Assembly: GCA_017404335.1 (NCBI GenBank) | Contig: JAFRCN010000006.1 | Coordinates: 1 to 64,000, forward strand | Reading direction: 5' to 3' | From: Candidatus Saccharimonadota bacterium | GTDB lineage: Bacteria > Patescibacteriota > Saccharimonadia > Saccharimonadales > Saccharimonadaceae | Length of the DNA stretch: 64,000 nt | In this document: positions 38,405-48,074 of the stretch, one piece after another | Layout: every line of letters starts with the position of its first letter | Numbering within the stretch: position 1 is the first letter of the stretch | Translations under genes and position numbers: made by a program | Notes under the pieces: generated by a model | What the model was told of the DNA's origin: nothing | Databases searched by the model: none | Seen by the model: the letters and a program-made list of their open reading frames with translations, nothing else

Positions 38405-38659
38405 CTATATTATATAATAAAGCACTTCATTAATCAAGGGTAAAGTTTTGCCCCGCCAGGAGGCACGAACTTCGCCATTCGCGCCGAGAGCTAAAATCGT
38501 GGGGTATTCAACAATATCGTAGGTCTCGCAAAAGTTAGGGTTTTCGTCGGGGTTCATAGTTTCGAGTTCGCGGCCGGTCTGCCGACGAAAATTTTCGAGC
38601 CATTCTTCGACCGACCTAGTATAATCCTCTTTATCTCGATAAATACAAATAACGCTCAT
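38405..38659 (-). CDS. thioredoxin-fold-like small protein
   Basis: 84 residues. The pattern MSVICIYRDKEDY.. and NFCETYDIVEYPTILALG, with a Tyr-Pro-Thr in the cis-Pro position, suggests a thioredoxin fold. There is no CxxC, so it is unlikely to be a redox enzyme. It overlaps the nrdR stop by 4 nt (ATGA) and therefore depends on translation through the family D element at the end of nrdR. Confidence 0.6.
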   Translation of the reverse strand: MSVICIYRDKEDYTRSVEEWLENFRRQTGRELETMNPDENPNFCETYDIVEYPTILALGANGEVRASWRGKTLPLINEVLYYII

Positions 38660-39243
38660 TTCACTCTCCCGACGGGTCCTTTCTCGGCGGGTCCTGCCGG
38701 CGACTCTCCCTCCCCAAAATTTTGCTTCGCAAACATTTTGGGGTCCCCTTCCGTCGCCGTCACCCGCCGATGAGAATCGGATGATTCCGCACCTCGATAT
38801 TTACCTTTCTGTTCTTTTAATATATTTTCAAAATCTTCAAGGGTTTTGAACTCGCGGAAGACTGAAGCGAAGCGGACGTAAGCAACTTCGTTGATTTCGG
38901 CGAGGACGTCGAGGACAGCTTCGCCGATTTGTTTACTCGTTATCTGGTCGGTGCCGTAGGCGTAGAGGATGTCAGAGGCGCGGTTGACGACGTCTTCGAT
39001 TTCGAGCTCGGAATTAAAGAACTTACCGACGCTACGTTTAACGGCGAGGAGAAGTTTATCGCGGTCAAAAATTTCTTTATTACCGCTGCGTTTAGTTACG
39101 GTAAGAGGAGGCATTTCGACTCGCTCATAGGTAGTAAAACGGCGTCCGTCGGCGGATTCGCGCCGGCGACGAATCATCGTCCCATCGACCGTTTCGCGGC
39201 TTTCTAGAACTTTGCTATCTCCGATGCGAAATTTCTGTTCCAT
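38656..39243 (-). CDS. nrdR: NrdR-like ATP-cone regulator lacking zinc cysteines
   Basis: NrdR represses ribonucleotide reductase genes when (d)ATP is bound. The ATP-cone (VTKRSGNKEIFDRDKLLLAV, EVAYVRFASVFREFKTLEDF) is intact and the linker RRRR..RFTTYERVE is recognisable. All four zinc-ribbon cysteines are missing, however: MEQKFRIGDSKV stands where MxCPxC..DTKV is usual, and RRRRESADGRRF replaces RRRRxCxxCxxRF. The protein has no cysteine at all. Residues ~158-195 are encoded by a family D element, making it ~40 residues longer than usual. It is directly downstream of ftsZ. Confidence 0.85.
   Translation of the reverse strand: MEQKFRIGDSKVLESRETVDGTMIRRRRESADGRRFTTYERVEMPPLTVTKRSGNKEIFDRDKLLLAVKRSVGKFFNSELEIEDVVNRASDILYAYGTDQITSKQIGEAVLDVLAEINEVAYVRFASVFREFKTLEDFENILKEQKGKYRGAESSDSHRRVTATEGDPKMFAKQNFGEGESPAGPAEKGPVGRVK
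38670..38770 (-). repeat. palindromic element family D, copy 2, in the 3' end of nrdR
   Basis: TCGGCGGGT / ACCCGCCGA encloses GGCGAC / GTCGCC and an inner hairpin around CCCCAAAATTTTG..CATTTTGGGG. A partial tandem repeat of the left arm (CGACGGGTCCT) lies at 38670-38680. The inner part matches copy 1 at 17705. It is translated as the NrdR tail, including TEGDPKMFAKQNFG. Confidence 0.82.
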
Positions 39244-39258
39244 CCGCGTATTCTCCTT

Positions 39259-40422
39259 TTAATCCTTTTTCTTACGACTGCGGAGTCTCTCTCTTAGGGA
39301 AGGCGGAACGTCTAAGTCGTCGTCGCTAGCCGGAGTAGGTTCCGGCTCGGGCTCAGGTTCGGATTTAATCGAGTCCCACATGTTAGACTTGTTTTCGAGA
39401 GCGAAATCTTTCGCTTCGACGGAAGGCTTTTCGTCTTCGAATTTAGGCTCCGGGGTCGACGATTGCTCATTGAAATAATCAGAATCGAAACCAGTTGCGA
39501 CGACGGTGACGATAATTTCGTCTTCGAGCTCAGGGCGAATCGAGGCGCCGAAGATAATATTCGCGTCCGGAGAAACAGCGCCGGTAATGACCTCGGCGGC
39601 TTCTTGGATTTCGGACATCGACATATCGTAGCCACCAGCAACACTGAAGAGAACGCCACGAGCACCTTCAATCTTGACCTCGATAAGCGGAGATTCGACA
39701 GCTTGGCCGGCAGCGATAACAGCGCGGTTCTCGCCGGAGGCGCGACCGATGCCCATAAGAGCGGAGCCAGCGTTTTTCATAATAGCTTTAACATCAGCAA
39801 AATCGAGATTGATGAGAGAATGTTCGGTAATGAGCTCCGAGATACCTTGGACGCCTTGGCGCAGGACATCGTCGGCGATTTTGAAGGTCTCAAGAAGAGG
39901 GGTGCGAGGATCGATAGTCTGGAGGAGTCGATCGTTCGGAATAGTAATGAGGGCGTCAACTTGGCGCGAGAGTTTGTCGATAGCGAGCTCGGCGTTCGAA
40001 CGGCGACGGGCGCCTTCGAAAGTAAACGGCTTCGTCGCAACACCAACAGTTAAGATGTCGCGCTTTCTTGCCTCTTCGGCAACAATCGGACCAGCGCCAG
40101 AACCGGTACCGCCACCCGCACCGAGAGTAATAAAGACCATGTCAGCACCATCTAAGGCTTTACCGATAGCATCTCTTCCCTCTTCGGCGGCTTCGCGACC
40201 TTTTTCGGGATCGCCACCAGCGCCGAGACCTTTACCGATATGTACCTTAGTATCGGCGGCTGAATGGTGTAAAGCTTGGGCATCGGTATTAATCGCGACG
40301 AATTCAACGCCGGTTAGACCGACTTCTTTCATTCGCTCGACCGCGGAACCGCCGGCACCGCCGACCCCTACTACTTTGATACTTGCTTGACTCTCCACCT
40401 CAGTCGGTTTAATTTCTGGCAT
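39259..40422 (-). CDS. ftsZ: cell division protein FtsZ
   Basis: Tubulin-like GTPase that forms the division ring. 387 residues with the GTP signature GAGGGTGSGAGP, the N-terminal GVGGAGGSAVERM, the T7 loop region (NLDFADVKAIM) and an acidic variable linker. It ends in a basic segment (RLRSRKKKD) instead of the usual FtsA-binding peptide. TATAAT and a ~30-nt leader precede the ATG. It follows ftsA, separated by a family D palindrome. Confidence 0.97.
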   Translation of the reverse strand: MPEIKPTEVESQASIKVVGVGGAGGSAVERMKEVGLTGVEFVAINTDAQALHHSAADTKVHIGKGLGAGGDPEKGREAAEEGRDAIGKALDGADMVFITLGAGGGTGSGAGPIVAEEARKRDILTVGVATKPFTFEGARRRSNAELAIDKLSRQVDALITIPNDRLLQTIDPRTPLLETFKIADDVLRQGVQGISELITEHSLINLDFADVKAIMKNAGSALMGIGRASGENRAVIAAGQAVESPLIEVKIEGARGVLFSVAGGYDMSMSEIQEAAEVITGAVSPDANIIFGASIRPELEDEIIVTVVATGFDSDYFNEQSSTPEPKFEDEKPSVEAKDFALENKSNMWDSIKSEPEPEPEPTPASDDDLDVPPSLRERLRSRKKKD

Positions 40423-46034: not shown

Positions 46035-46640
46035 TTAGATAGTGCGGAGTCTGAGGAGGAAGGACTCGATGAGAAGCCAGGGGTCGATAGAAGAGGATTT
46101 TAGGTTGAGGTCGAGAGCGGAGAGCTCCTTTAAGATTTTCTTTTCTTTCGTTCCCTGGCTCGCGGTGTAGTCTTTTAGCGCTTGCGAGACGAGAAGACCG
46201 AAAAACATAATGGGGTCTTCACTTAGTTTAATTTTCTCGAGCATTTCGACAGCTTTTTTGCCGTCGTTTTTGGCGGTTTTGTAGATATTAAAAACTTGAG
46301 TTAAGTTCGGATTTTTCGGGAGGGCGAATTCTCTGATTTCGATTTGGTCTTTTAGGGTCTTATAGGTCGCGCTTCGTTTGTCGAGTTTTAATTCGAGAAG
46401 GACTATATCGTGCGGGGTGTCGAGGTAGTCGGGGAGCTTTTCGAAGGCGGGTTTATTCGCGGAGAGGTCGCGGATGAGGATTTTTCGCTTCTCGGCGAAG
46501 AGAGACGTACCGAGGAAAAGAGTCGGGAGGTCGTTTGGGTTTAAGTCGGCGCCTTCGACCGTCTCGTGGTTCTCGCCGAGGAGTTTAGTAATTTCGGAGT
46601 TCGCTTTCACACGGTCATCACCGTAGAATAGCTTAATCAT
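46035..46640 (-). CDS. holA: shortened DNA polymerase III delta subunit
   Basis: The delta subunit opens the sliding clamp. The pattern MIKLFYGDDRVKANSEITKLL.., LPTLFLGTSLFAEKRKILIRDL and VFNIYKTAKNDGKKAVEMLE fits HolA. At 201 residues it lacks much of the middle AAA+ domain (usual ~340). The neighbourhood with rpsT and mutM supports the call. It overlaps the mutM stop by 8 nt. Confidence 0.75.
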   Translation of the reverse strand: MIKLFYGDDRVKANSEITKLLGENHETVEGADLNPNDLPTLFLGTSLFAEKRKILIRDLSANKPAFEKLPDYLDTPHDIVLLELKLDKRSATYKTLKDQIEIREFALPKNPNLTQVFNIYKTAKNDGKKAVEMLEKIKLSEDPIMFFGLLVSQALKDYTASQGTKEKKILKELSALDLNLKSSSIDPWLLIESFLLRLRTI

Positions 46641-47493
46641 TTTTTACCTCCTTTTGACAATGCGGGCAGTAATGAGTACCGCGACCAGCAACTTTCTTTT
46701 TGATTATTTTTGTGCCACAGCGTGGGCAGGGCTGACCTTCTTTGTGGAAAACCTGCGCGAAGAGGTCGAGATAGTCGCCTTTCGTGCCGTCGGCCTTGAC
46801 GTAGTTTTTCATGGTCGAACCGCCGGAGGCGATCGACTTTTCCATGACGGCTTTCGCGGAGTTTAGAAGGAGGTTCGTTTCGTCGAAGGTGATACTGCCA
46901 GCTTTTCTCTCGGGGTTTATTTTTGAAGAAAAAAGCGACTCGTCGGCGTAGATGTTGCCGAGGCCGCAGATAATCGACTGGTCTAGGATAACGGCTTTAA
47001 TCGCCGAGTTTTTGTGTTTTTGTAACTTTTCGTAGAGCTCGGGGGCGGTCATATCCCAAGGTTCCTTCGCGAGTTTCTTAATAAAAGAATCGTTTTTGAC
47101 GTTTTTTGTCTCGATAATTTTAATGAAGCCGAATTTACGTTGGTCGTTGAAATAGAGAGTGCCGTTATCTAAAGTAAGGGTCACGCGGGTTTGTTTGTTC
47201 GGGAGCTTGGCAGTAAAATTGTCGCTCGGGTGGCCGGCGGCGTAGCGTTCTTTACCGTCGTAGATTAACTGGCCGGTCATGCGAAGGTGGATCATTAAGG
47301 ATTTTTCGTTATCTAGGTCTATAATTAAGGCTTTGCCGAAACGGCGGAGATTTATAATTTTCGCGCTTTCGACGGTTGTTGGGTCGCCCTGGAAAGATTT
47401 ATTGCAGTAAACTTCGATTTTTTTGATTCTTTTTTCTAAGATAAAGTCTTTTAAACCTCTTCTGATTGTTTCGACTTCTGGTAACTCTGGCAT
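46633..47493 (-). CDS. mutM: formamidopyrimidine-DNA glycosylase
   Basis: Removes 8-oxoguanine and ring-opened purines. Catalytic N-terminus MPELPEVETIRRGL (Pro1 after Met removal, Glu2), H2TH domain, and C-terminal zinc finger CPRCGT..THYCPHCQ. 286 residues, full length. TAAAAT ends 6 nt before the ATG: leaderless. Confidence 0.96.
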   Translation of the reverse strand: MPELPEVETIRRGLKDFILEKRIKKIEVYCNKSFQGDPTTVESAKIINLRRFGKALIIDLDNEKSLMIHLRMTGQLIYDGKERYAAGHPSDNFTAKLPNKQTRVTLTLDNGTLYFNDQRKFGFIKIIETKNVKNDSFIKKLAKEPWDMTAPELYEKLQKHKNSAIKAVILDQSIICGLGNIYADESLFSSKINPERKAGSITFDETNLLLNSAKAVMEKSIASGGSTMKNYVKADGTKGDYLDLFAQVFHKEGQPCPRCGTKIIKKKVAGRGTHYCPHCQKEVKND

Positions 47494-47639
47494 ATATCTA
47501 TTTTATCATAAATCCATATTTAGCGTAAAATGGGTCTTGACGAACGCTATATGTGGGGTTTATAATGATTCTAGGTAATGCTTAAAATATTAAAATGACC
47601 GATTCGGGGCGGGGATTTTAGTCGAAAAAGGAGAAAACC

Positions 47640-48074
47640 ATGAAGAAAATAATTTACAAAAGTCAAAACGATGTTGCAAATTTCGATATGAAGAGATTTT
47701 TGAAATCGCTTTCGAAATATGCGAAGGTGAGCGAGAAGGAAGCGACGGAAGCGCTAGCGGAATTCGACCAATATGAAACGATGCACGTTTCGTGCTTAGT
47801 CGAGGCGGGAGTGAAACTTCTAGAAGCGAAGGACGCTGAAGCGGCGAAGGAATATTTCGAAGCGCATTCTGAGTATTTCGATGAAGGTAAATTTGAGAGA
47901 CTGCGCCGGATTACGGGGTATCTCGTCGGGACTTTGGATAGATGGAATGATGCGAAAAAAGCCGAGGAAAAGGCTCGGGTAAAACACTCGGTTAATTCGG
48001 CGATTGATGATGCGGCGAGACTTGTCGCGCTCGAAACTCAGGCGATGGAACACAATATCGCTTACGTGCGATAA
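47640..48074 (+). CDS. small protein with an NrdD-tail-like C-terminus
   Basis: 144 residues. The C-terminal part RRITGYLVGTLDRWNDAKKA and RVKH resembles the tail that follows the zinc finger in anaerobic ribonucleotide reductase (NrdD). The zinc Cys motif and the glycyl-radical site are absent, so it is not a reductase. The first 100 residues are helical and acidic. A strong promoter (TTGACG 47537-47542, 18 nt, TATAAT 47561-47566) drives it, and GGAG precedes the ATG. The 5' leader carries a G-rich stretch. Confidence 0.55.
   Translation: MKKIIYKSQNDVANFDMKRFLKSLSKYAKVSEKEATEALAEFDQYETMHVSCLVEAGVKLLEAKDAEAAKEYFEAHSEYFDEGKFERLRRITGYLVGTLDRWNDAKKAEEKARVKHSVNSAIDDAARLVALETQAMEHNIAYVR

Follow-up and report, generated by a model that had tools for sequence, protein, structure and literature searches.

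Can a NrdR protein that has lost every cysteine of its zinc ribbon still fold and bind its operators, or has it acquired another role? Descriptions of NrdR present it as a zinc-ribbon protein. The initial annotation of a 64-kb stretch of Saccharibacterial DNA (64,000 nucleotides, referred to as "the window" in this study) noted a NrdR in which all four ribbon cysteines were gone and no cysteine was left elsewhere, and it offered two possible readings: the protein binds DNA in the absence of zinc, or it has taken on a new role. The features of this locus are as follows.

38656..39243, minus strand: nrdR, Cys-less, 195 aa (open reading frame; ATP-cone and Zn_ribbon_NrdR Pfam matches over cut-off; the genome's sole NrdR match)
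39115..39243, minus strand: ribbon domain, residues 1-43, zinc ligands replaced (alignments; per-column counts in 57 sequences; modelled strands)
38842..39102, minus strand: ATP-cone, residues 48-134 (PF03477, 56.6 bits)
38659..38793, minus strand: C-terminal extension of nrdR, read-through of an inverted repeat with arms 38681-38704 and 38753-38776
39259..40422, minus strand: ftsZ, directly upstream of nrdR (Pfam Tubulin and FtsZ_C)

The gene starts with an ATG preceded by AAGGAG, and its 195-aa product contains 0 cysteines, in agreement with the annotation. The limits first given for the gene, 38800-39243, had to be corrected to the real frame, 38656-39243; position 38800 is approximately where NrdR homology stops (near residue 150, about 38794), and most NrdR relatives end near this residue. 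Residues ~151 to 195 make up a 45-residue tail that is read through into an inverted-repeat element, of which an 85% copy lies at 17705-17791. Other parts of the genome, as well as relatives, also contain peptides resembling this element (38681-38776 and 17705-17791). Zn_ribbon_NrdR (PF22811) matches the protein at 38 bits against a cut-off of 27.2, and the ATP-cone match behind it is likewise over its cut-off, while the NCBIfam NrdR model (TIGR00244) scores 116.6 bits, just below the cut-off of 124.65. No second NrdR match was found in the 686-kb genome. Directly downstream of nrdR (38405-38659, minus strand), a weak Pfam match indicates a small thioredoxin-like protein without CxxC, and a small protein after NrdD in locus L273 looks similar to it.

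In a protein search of 99 relatives, NrdR was matched in 94, comprising 57 of 60 genomes of the same genus and 37 of 39 from other families of the order. Both CxxC pairs are absent from all 57 NrdRs read from the genus (60 genomes searched, three without a match), a pattern that is more than chance or error and that bears out the annotation with the alignment of Saccharibacteria NrdRs it had called for. Outside the genus, 33 of the 37 matches were read (those of G070, G072, G077 and G078 were left out; G070 has a single match, later read as L166, which belongs to a four-cysteine paralogue): 31 carry both CxxC pairs, L089 breaks off behind its first pair, and L067 reads CPKA/CIDA. The last of these, from genome G085 of another family, represents a separate partial loss of NrdR cysteines, and the same genome carries a second NrdR-like paralogue (L164) that has lost all ribbon cysteines (WRRRQNVNG); its relatives L165-L168 keep four. 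In the window's own family, 86 of 91 sampled genomes have NrdR, and of the 60 loci that were read, 34 lack the cysteines, 25 retain both pairs and one is cut; among the matches listed for named loci, 34 of 80 are Cys-less and 46 keep the CxxC pairs, some genomes being in both samples so that these counts are not additive. The 34 listed Cys-less named loci are titled Saccharibacteria (29), Saccharimonadia (2), Nomurabacteria (2) and uncultured bacterium (1). We found no Cys-less or Saccharibacterial NrdR in the open-access literature.

With the ribbon left out, a tree of the ATP-cone only (89 rows) placed the Cys-less rows in one clade with a bootstrap of 93 and an SH-aLRT of 87, supports that are rough because few columns were available for many rows. 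This clade includes L328, which has one stray cysteine and no CxxC, and it is sister to a Cys4 clade from the same family. In an earlier tree, with 103 rows, the Cys-less rows again grouped as one clade (SH-aLRT 99). The position of nrdR directly behind ftsZ, seen in 34 of the 34 Cys-less named loci among the matches listed, is common to the Cys-less loci and their Cys4 relatives. Judged by sequence, the Cys-less protein descends from NrdR, its clade lying within the Cys4 NrdRs of the family.

At the first knuckle, the old ligand positions are variable (residue 2) or mostly hydrophobic (residue 5) and are followed by an invariant Ile and a nearly invariant Gly-Asp-Ser, the knuckle having become a short conserved turn, x-I-G-D/E-S. 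The second has become a turn, x-D-G-x, with Ser, Thr or Ala at old ligand position 30 and an invariant Gly at position 33. No conserved set of replacement ligands was visible at the old zinc positions in per-column counts of the 57 genus sequences. A general purge of zinc sites was considered and is not supported by the two proteins looked at: a C4 site stays in the window protein 46636-47502, which from its sequence is presumably a formamidopyrimidine-DNA glycosylase, and the C-terminus of NrdD keeps CGFSG..CPHCGR.

DNA recognition by E. coli NrdR has been reported to require Asp15, Arg17, Arg26, Arg28 and Arg37, and Arg27, Arg29 and Glu42 are described there as salt-bridge residues of the dimer contact (PMC12176259). 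The window equivalents of the former (E14, R16, R25, R27 and R35) and of the latter (R26, R28 and E40) are kept in all 57 genus sequences and are also invariant in a 23-row alignment of the clade; the residue aligned with Asp15 is Glu in the aligned Cys4 relatives as well. Constraint is stronger on the ribbon than on the cone (mean pN 0.095 vs 0.186), and the median dN/dS values are 0.05 and 0.07, respectively, with pS near saturation. In the AlphaFold model, ribbon strands 11-17, 23-29 and 35-41 have a mean pLDDT of about 88 and residues 1-10 of 64, with the caveat that AlphaFold may impose the family fold. The best solved structural matches of the model are NrdR chains. Thus the PF22811 match, the modelled strands and the structural matches all indicate a three-stranded ribbon homologous to that of NrdR. 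As the initial annotation had stated, the ATP-cone and the arginine-rich segment remain; its description of the latter as a linker does not hold, as this segment is modelled as the second ribbon strand. Counting against binding without zinc, the metal is reported to enhance E. coli NrdR binding, and the ribbon region to be crucial in Streptomyces NrdR (PMC4898720).

If the protein binds DNA, its operators might be recognizable. NrdR binds paired 16-bp boxes, with spacers of 15-17 bp reported as best (PMC12051234), and pairs with starts 31-33 bp apart were scored here, the best possible sum being 32. Of 49 distinct Cys-less loci, 46 have a predicted pair with a sum of at least 26 upstream of nrdD, vs 0 of 939 same-locus control windows; a sum of at least 24 is reached in 49 of 49 vs 9 of 939. 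These nrdD counts are somewhat favoured and not fully blind, as the score was drafted after some nrdD upstream regions had been seen; the control windows and the small-gene loci described below were scored later by the same box rule. The duplicates L266, L288 and L290 were dropped from the 49 loci, which also leave out L289 (a duplicate) and the Cys4 row L269, both part of an earlier 52-row scan. The commonest letters of the better box at nrdD are ACACTATATATAGYGT, position 3 being A or G, and agree with the usual NrdR box; 6 of 7 usable nrdD upstream regions of the Cys4 sisters also reach a sum of 26. The nrdD promoter of the window's own genome has a weak pair (24 of 32), and in close relatives of this genome, box 1 at nrdD is often only a half-site. 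Among eight loci scanned for class I/II RNR genes of Cys-less genomes, one (L285) has a clear pair.

Within the window, the only box pair with a sum of at least 25 lies upstream of a small gene about 8 kb from nrdR.

47511..47526, plus strand: predicted NrdR box 1 upstream of the glycyl-radical gene, AATCCATATTTAGCGT (box-pair score)
47544..47559, plus strand: predicted NrdR box 2, ACGCTATATGTGGGGT, after a 17-bp spacer, inside the promoter (box-pair score)
47537..47566, plus strand: sigma-70-like promoter, TTGACG-N18-TATAAT, 11/12, overlapping box 2
47640..48074, plus strand: stand-alone glycyl-radical domain gene of anaerobic RNR, 144 aa, RRITGYLVGTLDRWN (NRDD profile; alignment)

Box 2 is located between the TTGACG and the TATAAT of the promoter match, and of 18 loci with the glycyl-radical gene, the window included, 17 have a pair of at least 26 upstream of it. 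A pattern drawn from the two sites of the own genome had no third match there (two matches; control 0), and as it was built from those two sites, only the absence of a third match is informative. Pairs upstream of nrdR itself occur in 19 of 33 loci of Cys4 families at a sum of at least 25 and in 0 of 57 loci of the genus, so that autoregulation appears to have been lost. The invariant contact residues, the constraint on the ribbon and the box pairs with 15-17 bp spacers at RNR genes together support DNA binding without zinc, one of the two readings proposed at the outset; the other reading, a new role, has gained no support so far.

The 47640-48074 protein matches only positions 532-562 of the NRDD profile, and by comparison with full-length NrdD, its conserved core, FERLRRITGYLVG.L.RWND, corresponds to the C-terminus missing from truncated NrdD. 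The own-genome NrdD (G000:C6:9230-11461; L152:5231-7462) ends before the glycyl-radical region, as does NrdD in 36 of 60 genus genomes, this one included. The small gene is present in 35 of these 36 genomes (G052 being the exception) and in 7 of 23 with full-length NrdD; G021 has no NrdD match. Truncated NrdD and the small gene product are therefore likely to form, on sequence grounds, a two-polypeptide class III RNR under predicted NrdR boxes. No split NrdD was found in the open-access literature. The glycyl radical protein that serves as a spare part when pyruvate formate-lyase has been damaged by oxygen, as described in PMC8683613, is likewise a separate small protein of the glycyl-radical region; in contrast to it, the 47640-48074 protein belongs to NrdD, and in 36 genus genomes a glycyl region is missing from the main enzyme itself. 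The distribution in the genus may reflect the passage of an optional spare part to a subunit that the enzyme cannot do without.

An ATP-cone in the N-terminal part of the small protein is not claimed (0.4% probability in a profile comparison), and its AlphaFold model, with a pLDDT of 58 from three sequences, is too weak for use. Small stand-alone NrdD glycyl-radical domains are present on many phage contigs: of the matches in 47 matching viral contig stretches, 44 fall in frames no longer than 154 aa and three in frames of 574-756 aa. The viral loci L360-L364 also share the N-terminal part of the small protein, and no box pair was found upstream of their genes at the score used. In several of the phage contigs L360-L406 (e.g., L383, L384, L398, L399 and L404), the frames break exactly at ITG/YLVG, perhaps due to introns at the radical glycine. 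Another possible split is seen in G124 (CG2_30_37_16; L226, L269 and L273), a genome with a Cys4 NrdR. Its NrdD stops at profile position 529, and positions 531-560 are encoded by a separate frame of 75 aa, located ~110 bp further downstream. The truncated NrdDs L147, L153, L169 and L170 end in new cysteine pairs (CSCAKGE, CNCAKGE, TCCSKG and CSCAKGK), reminiscent of C-terminal redox tails.

The class I/II large subunit is present in 0 of 60 genus genomes vs 38 of 39 others of the order, and NrdD in 59 of 60 vs 0 of 39. That the cysteine loss followed from a switch to class III RNR was rejected, as there are Cys-less genomes with class I/II only and Cys4 genomes with NrdD only. The 22 Cys-less genomes reached through the named loci listed comprise 5 with class I/II only, 3 with both and 14 with NrdD only; 18 Cys4 genomes of the same family comprise 5 with NrdD only, 2 with both, 9 with class I/II only and 2 with neither.

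Three other explanations have to be weighed. The protein might have left DNA, its cone still sensing nucleotides in a new role (e.g., in protein-protein contacts) with the boxes read by something else. The loss of every zinc ligand and the absence of boxes at nrdR throughout the genus would fit, but the DNA-contact residues are invariant, the ribbon is more constrained than the cone, box pairs are conserved at nrdD and the glycyl-radical gene, and the window's genome has no second NrdR match. A new role is thus disfavoured, and we regard it as improbable. It is quite unlikely, too, that a metal is still held through other ligands, be they Asp, Glu and His side chains or main-chain groups. Near the old knuckles, D9 and D32 are almost invariant, but the aligned old ligand positions (residues 2, 5, 30 and 33) are variable or occupied by non-ligands and D32-G33 is probably better accounted for as a beta-turn.

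An artefact (a wrong start, an assembly error or a decaying pseudogene) can practically be dismissed. The window copy does carry a 45-residue tail from a repeat element, but the ftsZ stop, in frame and five codons ahead of the ATG (KKKD*KENTRM), leaves no room for a longer nrdR frame with cysteines, the error that the initial annotation had named as the way its claim could fall; Cys-less relatives in the genus and family, many of them independent genomes, have already refuted such an origin, and a ribbon dN/dS of about 0.05 is not that of a decaying gene.

We therefore consider it highly probable that the window protein is a NrdR orthologue, predicted from its sequence to fold and bind operators without zinc. 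In one Candidatus Saccharibacteria lineage, both zinc knuckles were swapped for short turns, whereas the three-stranded ribbon was kept, together with its DNA-facing arginines and glutamate, the salt-bridge residues of the dimer and the ATP-cone. The cone would load dATP plus ATP, giving a NrdR tetramer that would sit on box pairs 31-33 bp apart at the promoters of nrdDG and, where present, the glycyl-radical gene, so that high dATP would shut off anaerobic dNTP synthesis; the absence of metal, binding, nucleotide control and repression are all properties that we infer for the Cys-less protein. Compared with known NrdR (TIGR00244; E. coli and Streptomyces coelicolor; PDB 9fxk, 9fvr and 7p37), the ATP-cone, ribbon strands, RRRR motif, DNA and dimer contacts and box pairs with 15-17 bp spacing upstream of RNR genes are the same. 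However, the Cys-less form has 0 of 4 zinc cysteines, knuckles cut to turns and a score below the TIGR00244 cut-off, and nrdR of the genus lacks boxes of its own and lies directly behind ftsZ. By descent and anatomy the protein is a NrdR, and by the cysteine test not a typical one; most likely, it is a zinc-free variant working as NrdR does. Zinc-free ribosomal proteins such as S4, as described in PMC3087516, likewise retain a zinc-binding domain that has outlived its cysteines, although S4 is a structural protein of the ribosome whereas NrdR is a single-copy, ligand-controlled repressor.

That contacts and target sites were kept despite the lost cysteines suggests that the Saccharibacteria repressor does not need zinc. 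With the same contacts and operators in a Cys-less lineage, and with the Cys4 sister proteins of the same family as matched controls, it becomes directly testable whether zinc in NrdR serves fold stability only or regulation. The same NrdR regulon reveals a likely two-polypeptide anaerobic ribonucleotide reductase. Rather probably, a metal-free NrdR commands a class III RNR split into a NrdD without the glycyl-radical region and a 144-aa subunit that bears the radical and has an NrdR-box promoter of its own. In such an arrangement, the dNTP sensor could adjust radical capacity separately from the catalytic chain; the subunit with the radical might originally have been a spare part and might derive from phages.
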